Assembly: GCA_002733915.1 (NCBI GenBank)
Contig: NVXN01000009.1
Coordinates: 70,393-81,065 of the forward strand
Reading direction: 5' to 3'
DNA from: Aequorivita sp.
GTDB lineage: Bacteria > Bacteroidota > Bacteroidia > Flavobacteriales > Flavobacteriaceae
Length of the DNA: 10,673 bases
In this document: positions 5,210 through 10,673 of the stretch, piece after piece
How the letters are laid out: every line of letters begins with the position of its first letter
How positions within the stretch are numbered: the first letter of the stretch is position 1
The notes under the pieces: generated by a model
The model's input: the letters and a program-made list of their open reading frames with translations, nothing else
Databases searched by the model: none
What the model was told of the DNA's origin: nothing
Position numbers and translations under genes: made by a program

Positions 5210-5282
5210 TATGTCCTAAGTGTTGTTAAGGATTTTGATGCAGGCGTGGTGGAATTGGTAGACACGCTAGACTTAGGACATA
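5210..5282. repeat. Perfect 12-bp inverted repeat enclosing a tRNA-Leu fragment
   Basis: TATGTCCTAAGT (5210-5221) is the exact reverse complement of ACTTAGGACATA (5271-5282). The 49-base interior contains most of the truncated tRNA-Leu. The right arm includes the anticodon-loop sequence CTTAGGA of that fragment. In RNA starting near 5202 the arms could pair into a 12-bp stem; in DNA they could be recombinase core sites. Confidence 0.8.
5240..5278 (+). pseudogene. Truncated tRNA-Leu (5' half only)
   Basis: Bases 5240-5278 match the 5' half of the intact tRNA-Leu that starts 73 bases downstream: acceptor GCAGGCG (GCGGGCG in the intact gene), the identical D-arm stretch, and the anticodon loop CTTAGGA. 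Differences are one acceptor base and the anticodon stem. After the anticodon loop the similarity stops. The following ACATAGCG does not complete the anticodon stem, and there is no variable arm, T arm or 3' acceptor strand before the next tRNA begins. It cannot form a tRNA. The acceptor difference suggests that it descends from a second isoacceptor gene rather than a recent copy. Confidence 0.8.
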
Positions 5283-5312: not shown

Positions 5313-5394
5313 GCGGGCGTGGTGGAATTGGTAGACACGTCAGACTTAGGATCTGATGCCGCGAGGTGTGGGAGTTCGAGTCTCCCCGCCCGTA
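5313..5394 (+). tRNA. tRNA-Leu(UAG)
   Basis: This 82-base tRNA folds normally: acceptor GCGGGCG/CGCCCGT (first pair G-U), D-arm GTGGAATTGGTAGACAC, anticodon stem TCAGA/TCTGA with loop CTTAGGA (anticodon TAG, reads CUA/CUN leucine codons), a long class II variable arm (TGCCGCGAGGTGT), T stem GGGAG/CTCCC with loop TTCGAGT, and discriminator A at 5394. CCA is not encoded (CAA follows). The long variable arm and discriminator A both support leucine. Confidence 0.96.
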
Positions 5395-5396
5395 CA

Positions 5397-5577: not shown

Positions 5578-5629
5578 ACCTTATTCCTTCGTAAGGGGAG
5601 TTTATTATCATACAATATAACCGCAATTT

Positions 5630-5775
5630 AAACTCGTAAAATACTTCCATCAAAAGACTACGGCATAAAGCCATTTCTTCAGCCAGCGCTTATTTATTCC
5701 GTTTCCTTTTGAGCCAAGATTTTATCTTCCGTTTGGTTCCTGCTCAAATATTGTTTAATCTAAAATTTGAGTATT
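5630..5775 (+). promoter_or_regulatory. Duplicated structured leader, copy 1 (upstream of ParB-like gene)
   Basis: This stretch ends at the ParB-like start codon and recurs at 7684-7824 ahead of the DUF932 gene. Long blocks are identical: 5630-5644, 5647-5672, 5691-5715, 5717-5736 and 5746-5764. Predicted pairing: TTTGAGC (5708-5714) with GCTCAAA (5742-5748), enclosing a hairpin AAGAT-TTT-ATCTT (5716-5728). A further weak hairpin lies at 5660-5674. TTCCGTTT occurs twice, 30 bases apart (5697-5704, 5727-5734). The conserved blocks, with position just before the start codon, indicate a cis-regulatory leader or operator. Whether it acts as RNA or DNA is open. Confidence 0.75.
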
Positions 5776-7563
5776 ATGACAACAAAAGCGAGTACCACAA
5801 AGAAGCGCAGTAGAGCGAAATCTATTGTCAAAAAAGAAGTGAATGGAATGGAAGCATCCGCACTTCAAATTCAGAACCTGGCTATAGGCAAAATAAAGCC
5901 CGACCCAGAACAACCAAGAAAAACTTTTAGCGAGGATGCATTACAGCAGCTTGCAGAGAGTATCGATAAGCACGGTGTATTACAACCGATTACGGTAAGG
6001 CAACTAAATGAACACTATGTCATCGTGATGGGCGAACGTCGGTATCGTGCAAGTATGCTGGCAGGGAAAAATACCATACCCTGTATTGTGAGGACTTATA
6101 AGAACAGTGATGTTCTGGAGGTACAAATCATCGAAAATCTGCAAAGACAGGATGTTGAGCCTACCGAAGAAGCCGAGGCGATTGCCTATCTAAGAGAAAA
6201 ATATGCGCCTACTGAAATTGCCAAACGATTGGGCAGAACGGATAACTTTATCAGACAACGCTTAAAGCTGGCAGGTTTGATAGAAGGCTTTAAACACTTT
6301 GTCCGCAATGGCGAAATGACCATTTCCTTGGGTGTAGGTGTCGCGCTCTTTGTACCTGAAGAACAGCAGATGATGTTGGAAACGATGGGCAAGGATTTCA
6401 ATGCGCACCAGATAAACAGGATGATTAAAGACCAGACCTATGATTTGGAAAAAGTATCCTTTGATGTAACCGACAAAAAATTAGTACCGAAAGCAGGGTC
6501 TTGTGTCGAATGTCCGTTCAACGCAGCCAATCAAGGGAATCTATTTGGGGATGGAAAGATGGTCTGTACAAAATCATCTTGTTACGAATCCAAGAAAAAC
6601 AAATCGTTCTTAAACCTGATTGAAAAATCAAAGAAAGAAAATGTACTGTTGATTCCTGAAATACGAAAGTATTGGGCAGATGATGAACGTAATCAGCTGG
6701 TCATTTCACAGCTAGAGAAAAATGATTTGAATGTCTATTTGCTAGACGATGTTGAAATCATTGAAAAACCGATTCAGCTCACATTGGAAGCCGTAAAAGA
6801 AGGATATCAGAATTACGACTACAATGAAGACGAGCTAAAAGAAGAATTTGACGAGGCTACCAAGACCTATAACGAGGAATTGGAAAAGTACAATTCGGCT
6901 ACAGCGAATGGATTTAGAAATGGCATCGTTTTTCATCCTGAATCTTACCTACACAAAGAAGTATTAGTGAAGGTCATCGAAAAATCAGAAGATGCAAATG
7001 AAGTACATTCTGTACCATTATCGAACAGAAAAATGGATGATTGTACACCAGATGAACAAATCATTAAAATCAACGAAAGGGAAATCCGGAAAAAGCAAAT
7101 CGAGAATAATCGACAGTTTGAAGAAGTTGTCGGGATGATTCGAGAAACTACGTACATAGAGACCAAGAAAACGCTTTCGGTAGATGAAATGGTCGCCTTT
7201 TCAATTTCGCTCTACGAAAACAATGTGGACTACTTTAGTCAGCAAAAGTACTTTACAGGATTATTGGGCGATACATCAAAGCTATCCAAAGTTGAAATCG
7301 TGGAAAATTTCAAGAAGAAGTTCAAAAAAGAAATTTTTCATAAGCTGATTCGGTATATGCTTACCAAGCAAGTGCATTTCGGCGAAAGTAATCACGTAAA
7401 TAATTTAACGAACATTTCATTCTACAATGCAATGCAAGGATATTACAAAACTAAGATTGCCGGTATTGAAAAAGAATATGCCGAAAAAAGGGACAAGCGT
7501 GAAGAACGTTTGAAAGAGCGCATCATAGTTCTTGAAAAGCAAATTCAGGAATTGAACGATTAG
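5776..7563 (+). CDS. ParB/RepB/Spo0J-like protein with four-cysteine motif
   Basis: The 595-aa protein starts at ATG 5776; an in-frame TTG at 5767 would add three residues, but the matching leader copy also ends at an ATG. Domains: basic N-terminus; ParB N-terminal (nuclease/CTP-binding) fold at about 29-127 with PDPEQPRKTF, GERRYRAS (86-93, the CTP-contact motif of ParB) and IIENLQRQDV (118-127); a helix-turn-helix at about 144-163 (APTEIAKRLGRTDNFIRQRL); then C243-x2-C246-x17-C264-x4-C269, a probable zinc site; a long charged C-terminal half ending in a coiled coil (about 560-595). The length and cysteine motif resemble ParB homologues of plasmids and integrative elements rather than the chromosomal ParB of about 300 aa. 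No ParA partner is in the window, so a DNA-binding regulator role is as likely as partition. A terminator follows directly. Confidence 0.93.
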   Translation: MTTKASTTKKRSRAKSIVKKEVNGMEASALQIQNLAIGKIKPDPEQPRKTFSEDALQQLAESIDKHGVLQPITVRQLNEHYVIVMGERRYRASMLAGKNTIPCIVRTYKNSDVLEVQIIENLQRQDVEPTEEAEAIAYLREKYAPTEIAKRLGRTDNFIRQRLKLAGLIEGFKHFVRNGEMTISLGVGVALFVPEEQQMMLETMGKDFNAHQINRMIKDQTYDLEKVSFDVTDKKLVPKAGSCVECPFNAANQGNLFGDGKMVCTKSSCYESKKNKSFLNLIEKSKKENVLLIPEIRKYWADDERNQLVISQLEKNDLNVYLLDDVEIIEKPIQLTLEAVKEGYQNYDYNEDELKEEFDEATKTYNEELEKYNSATANGFRNGIVFHPESYLHKEVLVKVIEKSEDANEVHSVPLSNRKMDDCTPDEQIIKINEREIRKKQIENNRQFEEVVGMIRETTYIETKKTLSVDEMVAFSISLYENNVDYFSQQKYFTGLLGDTSKLSKVEIVENFKKKFKKEIFHKLIRYMLTKQVHFGESNHVNNLTNISFYNAMQGYYKTKIAGIEKEYAEKRDKREERLKERIIVLEKQIQELND

Positions 7564-7576
7564 CTTTTGTTGTTTG

Positions 7577-7612
7577 AAGAAGGGTCGGCATTCGTGCTGG
7601 CTCTTCTTTTTT
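7577..7612 (+). terminator. Rho-independent terminator after the ParB-like gene
   Basis: A 14-bp stem, AAGAAGGGTCGGCA (7577-7590) with TGCTGGCTCTTCTT (7595-7608), has three G-U pairs and a TTCG tetraloop, and is followed by T's. It separates the ParB-like gene from the second leader, so the DUF932 gene needs its own promoter. Bases 7613-7683 hold no gene and no clear signal; TTTATTTG at 7625-7632 is a one-mismatch -7 box without a -33 TTG. Confidence 0.92.
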
Positions 7613-7683
7613 ATTTAGATAATTTTTATTTGAAAATGAGGAGCCAAATAGAAAAAATAATCAATCAATAGTAGCGCAAAGGT

Positions 7684-7824
7684 AAACTCGTAAAATACAC
7701 CCATCAAAAGACTACGGCATAAAGCCGTTCGCCCACTCACTATTTATTCCGTTTCCTTTTGAGCCGAGATTTTATCTTCCGTTTGGGTTTAGCTTAAATA
7801 TTGTTTAATCTAAATTCAAATATT
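7684..7824 (+). promoter_or_regulatory. Duplicated structured leader, copy 2 (upstream of DUF932 gene)
   Basis: This is the second copy of the leader at 5630-5775, ending at the ATG of the DUF932 gene. Pairing is kept: TTTGAGC (7758-7764) with GCTTAAA (7792-7798), where a C-to-T change turns a G-C pair into G-U; hairpin GAGAT-TTT-ATCTT (7766-7778), where A-to-G turns A-U into G-U; hairpin ACGGC-ATAAA-GCCGT (7714-7728), fully paired here but with one mismatch in copy 1. The TTCCGTTT pair is also 30 bases apart (7747-7754, 7777-7784). The copies diverge mainly at 7727-7740 and 7786-7795. Confidence 0.75.
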
Positions 7825-8661
7825 ATGTATTTACAAAATTTACAACAAGATGAAATCTTCGTTTCCAATGAAATGAAGTCTTTGAGAAGTATAACTCAAA
7901 TGGAATCCAGAAGAGGGCTTGAAAACGCCATAATTTCCAATGGTAAAATTGTCAATGTAGTCTCGAACAGCTATGGCCACATTCCAAATCAATTGTTCTT
8001 CAAGAAAGCTGAAGAAATGCTGACCGATGCACAATTGAACTTCCATAAACGCACCATCAACAAAAATGACAGGTCGTTTATTACCGACTTTATCATCGAC
8101 GACAAAAGCCAGTTTACGGTCAAGAACCATAAGGACTTGATTCTGCCGATGCTTCGGTTCAAGAATTCCTATGATGGAAGTGAAAAGACTTCGGGTCATT
8201 TTGGATTTTATAGAAAAGTATGTTCCAACGGACTGCACGTTTCACAAGCTGAAATCGAGTTTTCCATTAAGCACAGTAAGAACAATACCGACCTCATAAT
8301 GCCAAGGTTGAGCAACCTATTCGACAGATTTCTGGACAATGAGTTCTACACCATTACCAAGAGATTTGATAAAATGAGGAAATTTAAAATCATCGACACC
8401 AAAGAGTTCGTTAGAGCGATTCTTGACAAAACAAAACTCTTTAGATACGAGTGTAGCGATAAGAATAGTGAACCATCAAAAAAATCAAGAGAAGTCCTTG
8501 AAATTTTGAACTACGAAGCACTTTTATTAAATGAAGAACCGAATTTATGGCTGGGTTATAATGCATTCAATGCAGTATTGCACCATACATTAAAGAAGAG
8601 CTTTTCACAACAGGAAAAGTTAGATAAGAAGCTATTCAATGAAATATATGAAATGGCTTAA
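7825..8661 (+). CDS. DUF932 domain protein (phage/plasmid-like)
   Basis: This 278-aa protein belongs to the DUF932 family (PF06067-like), found on plasmids, phages and integrative elements; its biochemical role is unknown. Diagnostic stretches are the N-terminal SYGHIPNQLFFKKAEEML (49-66), FGFYRKVCSNGLHVSQ (126-141), and the C-terminal NLWLGYNAFNAVLHH (240-254). The length is near the family norm, and there are no signal peptide or membrane segments. ATG 7825 is chosen over the in-frame TTG at 7801 because it sits at the same place relative to the leader as the ParB-like ATG, and the TTG lies within the leader. Because it shares its leader with the ParB-like gene, the two are probably controlled together although a terminator separates them. 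Confidence 0.9.
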   Translation: MYLQNLQQDEIFVSNEMKSLRSITQMESRRGLENAIISNGKIVNVVSNSYGHIPNQLFFKKAEEMLTDAQLNFHKRTINKNDRSFITDFIIDDKSQFTVKNHKDLILPMLRFKNSYDGSEKTSGHFGFYRKVCSNGLHVSQAEIEFSIKHSKNNTDLIMPRLSNLFDRFLDNEFYTITKRFDKMRKFKIIDTKEFVRAILDKTKLFRYECSDKNSEPSKKSREVLEILNYEALLLNEEPNLWLGYNAFNAVLHHTLKKSFSQQEKLDKKLFNEIYEMA

Positions 8662-8820: not shown

Positions 8821-9588
8821 ATGCCAAAAATTATAGAAAATAAGATTATAGAAGTATTTAAGGAGCGTAGTTCCTTCGATAGGGACGAGCTATATCACTT
8901 TTATCTGGACTTTGAACCAGACTTGAAAGAAAGTACTTTTAGTTGGCGAATTTATGACCTTAAGAAAAAGGACATCATCAAAACCATTGGGCGAGGATTG
9001 TATGTTATATCCTATAAACCCAAGTACAAACCTGTTCTAACGGAAAATGTACTGAAAATAGCCCGTAAAATTACCGAGAGATTCGAGGATATTACATACT
9101 GCATTTGGGAAAGCCAATGGCTAAACGAGTTTACCCAACACCAAACATCCAATCAAATGATAGTCGTAGAAGTGGAAAAAGAATTTACAGAGTCACTTTA
9201 TTATTTTCTAAACGATTCAATACGAATGGATTTTTTCTTGAATCCCGATGAAAAGGAAATCGAATTCTATATTTCTGAAAGTAATGTGCCAGTCGTTATA
9301 AAACGACTCGTTACGAGAGCCCCAATAAGTAAAATAAAAGACAAAAAAACAGTTGTTCCCATTGCGACACTTGAAAAAATAATGGTAGACCTATTTGCAG
9401 ATGAAAATCTGTTCCATTTTTATCAAGGTTCTGAACTCATATACATTTTTGAAAGGATACTAGACCGCTACAGTATTAACCTTACAAAGCTGTTCAGCTA
9501 CGCAAAAAGACGTAAAAAAGAACAAGAAATCAAGCAATTTATAAGCAAACACATTCCAAATTTTTTAGAGGACATCCAATATGATTGA
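8821..9588 (+). CDS. abiEi: AbiEi-type antitoxin (DUF6577-like), type IV TA
   Basis: The 255-aa protein has an N-terminal winged helix-turn-helix (residues 1-65: IIEVFKERSSFDRDELYHF, then STFSWRIYDLKKKDIIKTIG and GRGLYVIS), followed by a C-terminal alpha/beta region (about 75-250, including TVVPIATLEKIMVDLFAD). This arrangement and its overlap with a nucleotidyltransferase gene identify it as an AbiEi-type antitoxin and transcriptional autorepressor. I recall that related Bacteroidota proteins are labelled DUF6577. ATG 8821 is chosen: an in-frame GTG at 8752 would put the -7 box inside the gene and add a hydrophobic extension unlike the family. The gene's stop (9586-9588) lies 8 bases inside abiEii. 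By family knowledge, type IV antitoxins do not bind the toxin but counter its effect. Confidence 0.85.
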   Translation: MPKIIENKIIEVFKERSSFDRDELYHFYLDFEPDLKESTFSWRIYDLKKKDIIKTIGRGLYVISYKPKYKPVLTENVLKIARKITERFEDITYCIWESQWLNEFTQHQTSNQMIVVEVEKEFTESLYYFLNDSIRMDFFLNPDEKEIEFYISESNVPVVIKRLVTRAPISKIKDKKTVVPIATLEKIMVDLFADENLFHFYQGSELIYIFERILDRYSINLTKLFSYAKRRKKEQEIKQFISKHIPNFLEDIQYD

Positions 9589-10673
9589 AAGAAAAAGTTT
9601 TACAAAAGAATGGTTGGATAGTTTCCGAGCGGAAAAAGAGCATAAATCCATTAATGTGACCATTCTGGAAAAAATGGTACACGCATTTTCGCTGTTAGAG
9701 TATTTAAAATTAGCTGGGCTTGATTTTGTATTCAAAGGTGGGACTTCCCTAGTATTATTGCTTGAAAAAGACAATCGATTTTCAATCGATATTGATATTA
9801 TTTCCAGCGTAGCCCGTGAAGCGTTAGAAAAAATTCTTGATACAGTAGTGGCCAACTCGCATTTTAAAAGACATATTTTGAACGAGAATCGAAGCTATAA
9901 AGAAGGTGTTCCGAAGGCGCATTACACGTTTGAATTCGATTCAGTCTATAACCCGAATGTTCCAGGAACAATTCTGCTGGACATTCTTTTTGACAGTCCG
10001 CATTATCCAGAACTTATAGAATCTGCCATAGAAGTATCTTGGCTTTCGGTCACTGGAACTACAACGACGATTACAACACCATCGGTAAATTCCATCTGTG
10101 GCGATAAGCTTACTGCTTTTGCACCAGAGACCATTGGTATTCCATATTACAAACAAGACCAGCTTTTTGCAATGGAAATCTGCAAGCAGTTGTTTGATTT
10201 AGGTAAACTATTTGAAAACATTACCGATATAAACATAGTGAAGAAAAGCTTTTCCGCTTTCGCGAAAGCTGAACTATCCTATAGAAGTTCTGATGAAAAT
10301 TTCAACAAAAGAAATCTTACTGAAACAGAGGTACTGTGGGATTCCATAAACACTTGTGCTATAATTTCAAAAAGGGAACGAAATTCCACCGCTGAAACAA
10401 AAAAGAAATTTGAAGATTTAAACCGTGGTATTCGCAGTTTTGGTAGTGCATTTCTAATGACGGGACATTTTAGGATAGAAGAAGCAATGGCAGCTTCGGC
10501 CAGAGTTGCTTACTTGAATGCAATCCTATTGCAACCAAAAATTATAGAAATTGAATATTATGAGGGACAAGATATAAGCGAGCTTACTATTGAAAAAGCA
10601 GATTGGGCATACCTGAATAAATTGAAACGCCAGCCGGATAAGTCCATATTTTATTATTGGTATAAGGCGGTGG
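9581..10673 (+). CDS. abiEii: AbiEii-type nucleotidyltransferase toxin, partial (3' end outside window)
   Basis: The frame opens at ATG 9581 (MIERKSFTKEWLDSFRAE), overlapping abiEi by 8 bases, and is still open at the window end (364 codons). It carries the DNA polymerase beta-type nucleotidyltransferase signature of AbiEii/AbiGii toxins: FKGGTSLVLLLEK (K52, G53, G54, T55, S56) and the metal-binding pair in FSIDIDI (D70, D72), a further acidic strand LLDILFD (D134, D138), and GDKLTAF (D175, K176). Known AbiEii/MenT-type toxins transfer nucleotides, in some cases to tRNA acceptor ends, blocking growth and giving phage defence or element maintenance. All visible motifs are intact, so it should be active if the missing C-terminus is normal. 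The start is fixed by the overlap and the absence of a better upstream ATG. Confidence 0.9.
   Translation, partial: MIERKSFTKEWLDSFRAEKEHKSINVTILEKMVHAFSLLEYLKLAGLDFVFKGGTSLVLLLEKDNRFSIDIDIISSVAREALEKILDTVVANSHFKRHILNENRSYKEGVPKAHYTFEFDSVYNPNVPGTILLDILFDSPHYPELIESAIEVSWLSVTGTTTTITTPSVNSICGDKLTAFAPETIGIPYYKQDQLFAMEICKQLFDLGKLFENITDINIVKKSFSAFAKAELSYRSSDENFNKRNLTETEVLWDSINTCAIISKRERNSTAETKKKFEDLNRGIRSFGSAFLMTGHFRIEEAMAASARVAYLNAILLQPKIIEIEYYEGQDISELTIEKADWAYLNKLKRQPDKSIFYYWYKAV

Follow-up and report, generated by a model that had tools for sequence, protein, structure and literature searches.

Each of the two copies of a conserved sequence in the window analysed here (the whole stretch of 10,673 nucleotides from Aequorivita sp.) is most probably a promoter that works in single-stranded DNA, similar to Frpo of the F plasmid, and belongs to an integrative conjugative element (ICE), whose leading region it serves. 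This reading comes from the copies themselves, their pairing and covariation, a promoter sequence that runs backward, the orientation to relaxase genes and a set of distant relatives, all of which were computed here. The copies stand before a ParB-like gene and a DUF932 gene in the following setting.

5313..5395, plus strand: tRNA-Leu at the left edge of the mobile element, probably its integration site
5607..5778, plus strand: copy 1, beginning with a conserved ATCA on its 5' side and reaching the ATG that starts the ParB-like gene (limits from alignment A1 and the conservation boundary)
5776..7563, plus strand: ParB-like gene, 595 aa, with ParB_N and HTH_ParB
7576..7609, plus strand: terminator separating the ParB-like and DUF932 genes
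7660..7827, plus strand: copy 2, up to the ATG of the DUF932 gene (limits from the repeats, the similarity search and alignment A1)
7825..8661, plus strand: DUF932 gene, 278 aa
8821..9588, plus strand: AbiEi-like gene (DUF6577), cargo in the putative leading region
9581..10672, plus strand: AbiEii-like gene, extending beyond the window end

The original prediction described a twin leader with shared blocks that ends at a start codon in both places, and a terminator between the two genes. The shared blocks were recovered as two repeats, 5629-5675/7683-7729 (94% over 47 nt) and 5691-5764/7741-7814 (92% over 74 nt); the start codons are the ATGs at 5776 and 7825, and the terminator has a 15-pair stem. 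The shared region stands as described except for its 5' boundary, since conservation begins further 5', at ~5607 in copy 1 and ~7660 in copy 2, adding an outer stem (P0) that was missing from the original prediction. Used as a whole-length query, copy 1 retrieved copy 2 with E 6.6e-40 (84% identity) and, 8.3 kb downstream at G000:C10:84356-84504, a third copy with E 2.0e-44; further copies were found in 41 of 199 genomes of the same family. Searches with nhmmer gave 103 hits, 77 of them distinct by sequence and 75 with at least 60 bits; three truncated copies and one with runs of N were omitted from alignment A1, and removing redundancy at 95% identity reduced the remaining 71 to 48. In this main family, most copies are followed immediately by a gene's start codon, and a mobile element can carry up to three copies or more. 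As to whether matches precede other genes, a check proposed earlier, the genes behind copies elsewhere include ssb, radC-like and other genes, and in those elements the arms are quite different.

Both copies form a long hairpin with interrupted arms.

5612..5754: hairpin of copy 1, with P0 5612-5618/5748-5754, a bubble, P1a 5630-5633/5731-5734 and P1b 5637-5642/5719-5724
5644..5718: inner stems of copy 1, P1c 5644-5646/5716-5718, P2 5650-5656/5706-5712 and P3 5660-5663/5699-5702
7665..7804: hairpin of copy 2, with P0 7665-7671/7798-7804, P1a 7684-7687/7781-7784 and P1b 7691-7696/7769-7774
7698..7768: inner stems of copy 2, P1c 7698-7700/7766-7768, P2 7704-7710/7756-7762 and P3 7714-7717/7749-7752

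The outermost and innermost pairs of P0 are mismatched in copy 2, and P1c is CTT/AAG in one window copy and CAC/GAG in the other, leaving therefore one A.A pair in copy 2. Covariation, which had been suspected from two copies, is strong in the 48 sequences: 89.8% of the 1,536 cells are paired and 18 of the 32 pairs carry changes on both sides, while none of 500 shuffles scored as high and slid versions of the structure were 34-54% paired. Fold energy by itself was set aside as proof of the hairpin, with weak values in the window copies. Folded as minus-strand DNA, copy 1 gives the full structure at minimum energy (z -1.8), and copy 2 alone gives P2 and P3 without P0 or P1 (z -2.1); RNAalifold returned just 14 pairs with little energy. 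Distant copies fold more strongly as minus-strand DNA, with z of -8.8 and -4.5 in two examples, and z fell below -2 in 33 of 49 folded elements.

Judged by its sequence, the left arm read on the minus strand is a promoter of the Bacteroidota type.

5623..5630, minus strand: -7 box of copy 1, TAAATTGC, of the TAnnTTGY type
5651..5653, minus strand: TTG (-33 element) of copy 1, 20 bases before the -7 box
7677..7684, minus strand: -7 box of copy 2, TACCTTTG
7705..7707, minus strand: TTG (-33 element) of copy 2, 20 bases before the -7 box

Flavobacterial promoters are known to carry both TAnnTTTG and TAnnTTGY as motifs at -12 to -5, according to the available part of PMC9723704. A single regular expression, TTG-N20..22-TAnnTT[TGC][GC], matched the minus strand of 63 of the 75 copies, with a spacing of 20 in 55 of these 63 and boxes of the types TAnnTTTG (30), TAnnTTGC (23) and TAnnTTTC (10). 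At the aligned position in the 48 non-redundant copies, the strict TAnnTTTG was present in 21 and TAnnTTGY in 16 (37 of 48 together). In duplex DNA this minus-strand promoter is directed away from the gene; once the minus strand folds into a hairpin, the promoter lies opposite the template and faces the gene.

More distant relatives were retrieved with a 17-mer of the apical loop, a probe that contains no promoter sequence. The scan of the genome collection returned at least 120 stretches, with titles for 80 of the 120. At least 146 sites of the 17-mer were listed, from which 18 without a right arm and two with too little flank were set aside, leaving 126. Among the matches listed, the backward box was present in 73 of these 126 elements and a forward box in 2, the strict backward box was missing in 53, and the side group without a right arm had a box in 4 of 18. 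Since the 17-mer set includes close copies (38 of 128 among the matches listed, some of them in genomes sampled before), distant elements were counted again separately, taking as distant at least 89 elements that score under 60 bits against the family profile. The backward box was present in 40 of 89 distant elements among the matches listed, where shuffling predicts 10.2, and the forward box in 2; 49 of the 89 lacked the strict backward box, and after thinning 28 of 64 carried it. The stems of distant copies are rebuilt, with different arm sequence and preserved pairing.

The position of the box within the hairpin is also informative. P1a stops at -12, and P0 begins at +1 (copy 1) or at +2 to +3 (copy 2), so the -7 box would lie in a ready-made bubble. 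We folded the minus strand of 49 distinct boxed elements, close and distant among the matches listed; elements that lacked a strict box, were near-identical or contained N were omitted, and in elements with two boxes we took the one whose distance from the loop came nearest to 28 nt. The mean predicted unpaired probability was 0.18-0.33 at -20 to -13, ~0.7 at -11 to -9 and 0.22 at -5, and the clean pattern of a paired -13 and open -11 to -8 was absent in 23 of the 49. In the close family the helix adjoining the box is short (P1a, 4 bp) and reaches at least 6 bp at 1 of 46 boxes. In distant elements among the matches listed, 25 of 41 boxes had a helix of at least 6 bp at their base, compared with 48 of 518 boxes outside the elements in Flavobacteriaceae loci. 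A stem of at least 5 bp was present at 63 of 73 boxes among the matches listed, compared with 33 of 73 when the right side was shuffled, and stems offset by -1 to +1 from the box numbered 43 among these 73 compared with 15 after shuffling, in a test that admitted only stems within 3 bases of the box.

The original prediction raised a cis-regulatory RNA as one option. In such a leader, a plus-strand transcript starting above 5607 would fold and act on the ParB-like and DUF932 genes by controlling their translation or termination, perhaps via a bound protein of the element. Such a role would suit the location of copies directly before start codons of several unrelated genes, the strong covariation and the terminator that divides the two genes, and cis-regulatory leaders in Rfam likewise combine conserved, covarying structure with a position just before start codons. 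Unlike those leaders, the sequence described here has no family match, no gene-strand promoter above it and no wobble bias, and its promoter is on the opposite strand. A search of the window against Rfam (E up to 1), one of the checks proposed earlier, matched tRNA only. Within 60 nt above P0, the gene strand carried TAnnTTTG in 0 of 75 copies (3.6 expected) and either type of -7 box in 1 of 75 (8.7 expected); a complete plus-strand promoter was matched in the 180 nt above in 1 of 75, and the sequence above P0 is not conserved. Substitutions had been described as running from G-C to G-U, yet the 48 sequences gave 18 G.T and 21 A.C cells with column pair 65-130 set aside, and 57 A.C cells with this pair included. 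The pair 65-130 is A.C (T.G on the minus strand) in 36 of 48 sequences, G-C in 8 and T-A in 3; because the bias sits in this single position, wobble polarity was judged only suggestive and was rejected as proof of the minus strand. An RNA leader also leaves unexplained the opposite-strand promoter that is kept in distant copies. On the Rfam, conservation, promoter and G-U results it was dropped as the first choice, and we consider it unlikely. What survives of the earlier idea is that separately transcribed genes of a mobile element share a structured control sequence, and not its RNA role.

Orientation to the transfer genes would fit a single-strand promoter. The element's own relaxase is NCBIfam MobB, and at all 20 loci showing both features (among 39 loci of at least 4 kb examined) the copies lie 5' of mobA/relaxase genes on the same strand. 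Relaxase genes are typically the last to enter the recipient, as stated in the available part of PMC11541004, and the minus strand is therefore the one expected to be transferred. A putative oriT is placed by a conserved block in the gap before mobA. From these patterns we infer the transferred strand, transcription from single-stranded DNA and transient expression in the recipient. The relaxase would nick oriT, located to the right of these two genes (ParB-like and DUF932), and the minus strand would enter the recipient led by its 5' end. As long as it is single-stranded, a copy would fold back on itself; its left arm, which has the -33 TTG and the -7 box, would serve as the non-template strand, and its right arm as the template, continuing into the ParB-like or DUF932 gene. 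With the -7 box in a preformed bubble, RNA polymerase with the primary sigma factor could start there. Second-strand synthesis would remove the hairpin and leave the promoter facing away from the gene, so that expression would end.

The same fold on the same strand could instead be an ssi/sso single-strand initiation site, at which RNA polymerase primes the second strand, with gene expression at most secondary. Both functions are reported for Frpo in the available part of PMC7690428, and such a role is compatible with a single-strand promoter. However, copies of the main family mostly stand right before a start codon and number up to three or more per element, which indicates gene expression, and several origins in one element would be redundant for priming; priming as the main function therefore seems less likely still than an RNA leader. 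An ordinary double-strand promoter or operator, with the backward promoter making an antisense RNA or divergent transcript and the inverted repeat being a protein site, is very improbable: the promoter is complete in duplex form and that of copy 1 faces the element junction, across which the circular form could have a divergent gene, but that of copy 2 points at the 3' end of the ParB-like gene, the helix boundary stays at the box in different arms, and the arms vary while pairing is kept, which is unlike a protein site. The earlier idea of an operator bound by the ParB-like protein seems unlikely, as copies also precede ssb, radC-like and other genes with quite different arms. Like parS, the sequence adjoins a ParB-like gene; unlike parS, it has interrupted arms over 150 nt whose sequence is free to vary, and copies were also found without an adjoining ParB-like gene.

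The single-strand promoters proposed here share several properties with Frpo1 and Frpo2 of the F plasmid and ssi2 and ssi3 of ColIb-P9, which likewise occur as several copies in the leading region and form long hairpins in single-stranded DNA with promoter boxes in the stem. In F, ssb, ParB-like and DUF932 genes lie behind Frpo, the kinds of gene that follow copies in the window or in related elements, with the F gene names matched to the annotation by order. The differences are that the sequence described here is about half as long (~150 nt, compared with 328 nt for Frpo in the available part of the source), that the window copies have weaker, A+T-rich stems, and that the boxes are of the Bacteroidota type (TTG, TAnnTTTG), while the search for Frpo/ssi candidates used TTGACA/TATAAT in the part of its description available. 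Copy 1 had no blastn match at E 1e-5 among 72,556 plasmid records including F (NC_002483.1), and it should therefore be regarded as working like Frpo and not as a member by sequence. The repeated region of F Frpo2 was located (90% over 528 nt); a crude sigma-70 scan of Frpo2 did not place its promoter, with a best score of 7/12 on the expected arm.

Bacteroidota are rich in integrative conjugative elements. We also consider it likely, with slightly less confidence than for the copies themselves, that their conjugative elements have independently evolved a class of single-strand promoters in which the unusual -33/-7 consensus of the phylum is combined with a pre-melted -7 box, and run with them a zygotic programme parallel to that of F, which would comprise SSB, ParB-like, DUF932, RadC-like and toxin-antitoxin cargo. 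The Frpo-type design was apparently reinvented in this phylum. Our literature search found no report of single-strand promoters in Bacteroidota; the published surveys consulted, including PMC11541004 in its available part, searched with the E. coli consensus or by similarity to known Frpo. Single-strand promoters determine the genes that a conjugative element can use before its recipient is able to respond. If our reading is correct, the motif may prove useful as a sequence-level marker for leading regions and early-entry genes throughout Bacteroidota, one and the same design would have arisen with another sigma-factor code, and an early-entry role becomes testable for two puzzling kinds of protein, DUF932 and ParB-like. 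The preformed bubble at the -7 box would also offer a clean experimental system for promoter melting.

A protein search of the plasmid collection with the ParB-like protein matched 3,796 records, the best of them from Flagellimonas and Arenibacter (52.9%). In a scan of 8 leading-region proteins for anti-defence functions, the AbiE pair was the sole recognised content.

The expectation that the leaders of the ParB-like and DUF932 genes are copies of one element was borne out: a search with copy 1 recovered both copy 2 and a further, third copy, and the three lie within less than 8.5 kb on a single contig. Conservation across copies begins at about 5607 in copy 1 and about 7660 in copy 2, with no conserved sequence 5' of these positions. 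Of 199 genomes from the same family, 41 contain at least one match, and an iterated profile search of the loci retrieved identified 77 distinct copies, with 75 scoring at least 60 bits. Copies precede at least five unrelated kinds of gene, namely the ParB-like and DUF932 genes, a small conserved ORF (about 54 aa) and the genes for two proteins of 183 and 135 aa. The small ORF follows many copies (9503-9670 in locus L033, and many other loci), ahead of DUF932 or the 183-aa protein; the one in the Aequorivita genome has no Pfam or NCBIfam match. Three loci carry second copies about 0.7 kb upstream, in which a longer inverted repeat replaces the apical loop (L095 2267-2388, L099 770-882, L103 2277-2387), and in the related locus L124 a DUF6943 gene stands behind the copy at the equivalent position.

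In an alignment (A1) of 48 copies thinned at 95% identity, a hairpin of helices P0, P1a-c, P2 and P3, named from the outermost to the apical, has 89.8% of its 1,536 cells paired. Covariation, previously judged from two copies, proved real: 18 of 32 pairs are changed on both sides across the 48 copies, and none of 500 shuffles was as high on any of five measures. Pair 45-150, for example, is T-A in 33 copies, C-G in 12, G-C in two and A-T in one; the ParB-type CTT/AAG, as in copy 1, becomes CAC/GTG in several DUF932-type copies, and for three P0 pairs there is a single copy in which both sides have changed. Counting against the hairpin, unaided RNAalifold gave just 14 pairs at -1.5 kcal/mol, and copy 2 folded alone did not form P0/P1; copy 1 alone does fold into P0/P1. 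The apical part scores as terminator-like on the minus strand (5660-5674 and 7714-7728 of the window) and could limit minus-strand transcripts.

The left arm carries a promoter-like sequence on the minus strand, TTG-N20..22-TAnnTT[TGC][GC], in 63 of 75 copies, the box being TAnnTTTG in 30, TAnnTTGC in 23 and TAnnTTTC in 10. Exact boxes in the 48 copies are TAnnTTTG (21) and TAnnTTGY (16). Bacteroidota promoters have TAnnTTTG near -7 and TTTG near -33 (PMC7366714), and Flavobacterium psychrophilum has two box types at -12 to -5, TAnnTTTG, which belongs to the primary sigma factor, and TAnnTTGY (PMC9723704). With boxes numbered by the -12 to -5 placement, P1a ends at -12, the first open base is A-11, and pairing resumes with P0 at +1 (copy 1) or at +2 to +3 (copy 2). 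The open stretch between P1a and P0 is about the extent of the transcription bubble of bacterial RNA polymerase.

In duplex form this promoter is directed away from the gene, that of copy 2 facing the end of the ParB-like gene. Folded as a minus-strand hairpin, the left-arm promoter bases would make up the non-template side, with the template side running on into the gene. On the gene strand, the 60 nt above P0 hold TAnnTTTG in none of 75 copies (3.6 expected by shuffling) and either box type in one (8.7 expected), and a full promoter match lies within 180 nt above in one of 75. The originally suggested cis-regulatory RNA is not favoured, given these few gene-strand boxes and G.T cells no more numerous than A.C cells on the plus strand, which gives no sign of selection for a plus-strand RNA. 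The duplex promoter facing away, the minus-strand hairpin facing the gene and the scarcity of gene-strand boxes point instead to single-stranded DNA. A single-strand promoter is the most likely reading, and we hold this predicted mechanism with good confidence, unchanged by a separate recount of close (at least 60 bits) and distant copies.

Under strict filters, which make these counts lower bounds, a covariance model placed the element in at least 10 genomes out of 296 in the order, 20 out of 395 in the class and 12 out of 296 in the phylum. Of the 20 class genomes, 15 belong to other families of the class and one to a different family within the order. Distant copies conserve the apical loop and differ in the stems. 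As a further test, sites were retrieved with a 17-mer of the apical loop only. Among the matches listed, 128 of 146 distinct sites have the right arm. Of those with enough flank (126, close and distant mixed), 73 have a strict backward -7 box and two have this motif on the opposite strand, against a shuffling expectation of 15.7. Taken apart, again among the matches listed, the backward box is present in 33 of 37 close copies; of 89 distant copies, 40 have it backward and two forward (10.2 expected); after thinning, 28 of 64 distant copies keep it. Among the matches listed, 25 of the 41 boxes in distant elements have a helix of 6 bp or more at their base, as does one of 46 in close elements, whose P1a is 4 bp; outside elements the figure is 48 of 518 boxes. 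In a separate survey that admitted stems up to 3 bases from the box, 22 of the 23 listed stems of at least 7 bp begin no more than one base away from -12, and these stems represent six or more different sequences. Folded as minus-strand DNA, 49 distinct boxed elements among the matches listed have a median z of -3.2; their mean unpaired probability is 0.18-0.33 from -20 to -13, rises to about 0.7 from -11 to -9 and falls to 0.22 at -5, and the pairing pattern is individually clean in 26. Two example folds have z of -8.8 and -4.5. At the 17-mer loci among the matches listed, the nearest gene of a given kind is downstream on the same strand in 27 of 32 cases for SSB, 26 of 27 and 19 of 20 for DUF932 (two queries) and 19 of 25 for RadC-like genes; the nearest ParB-like gene is always on the same strand, downstream in 13 of 24 and upstream in 11.

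The oriT of the F plasmid lies immediately before traM. In the stretch of F before traM, SSB, ParB-like and DUF932 proteins (Pfam) are all encoded on the strand reading toward traM. The single-stranded-DNA promoter Frpo2 precedes ssb, yfjA, yfjB, psiA and psiB, and Frpo1 precedes ygeA and ygeB; without Frpo1/Frpo2, fusions to ygeA, ssb and yfjA gave no significant fluorescence rise in transconjugants (PMC9849209). From gene order we infer that yfjB is the ParB-like and ygeB the DUF932 gene of F. The proteins are distant from those of the element (29% over 178 aa, 26% over 116 aa), and the element sequence had no match among 72,556 plasmid records, F included, so it would be Frpo-like in its working and is not a sequence member of Frpo. 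Among the open-licence papers listed, none was seen to describe promoters of this kind in Bacteroidota; Frpo and Bacteroid- words occur apart in PMC9024699, and the surveys PMC11541004 and PMC12826799 have no word beginning 'Bacteroid'.

The Aequorivita genome has, in order, tRNA-Leu, the ParB-like and DUF932 genes, an AbiE pair, cargo, the third copy, the small ORF, the 183-aa protein, two SSB genes, DUF6876, a gap, a BfmA-like mobA, a MobB relaxase and a coupling protein. This whole series is on the plus strand; further on, most genes, a TraG-like one included, lie on the minus strand. Copies and mobA/relaxase are visible together in 20 of the 39 examined loci that reach 4 kb, and in all 20 the listed copies share the strand of mobA/relaxase and lie 5' of it. 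A candidate oriT is the non-coding block before mobA that is conserved over 12 aligned loci (12301-12742 in L033). A relaxase gene is typically within the last-entering region (PMC11541004), and leading genes are expressed off the transferred strand (PMC9849209). With the copies 5' of the relaxase, gene orientation and these published systems lead us to expect the minus strand to be the one transferred. Two details of this layout are given below, the first possibly left behind by a previous integration event:

5238-5278, truncated tandem copy of the tRNA-Leu 5' half (41 nt, 93%), 73 nt ahead of the intact tRNA-Leu (5313-5395)
8821-10672, plus strand, AbiEi (DUF6577)/AbiEii pair within the putative leading region, after the DUF932 gene and before the third copy
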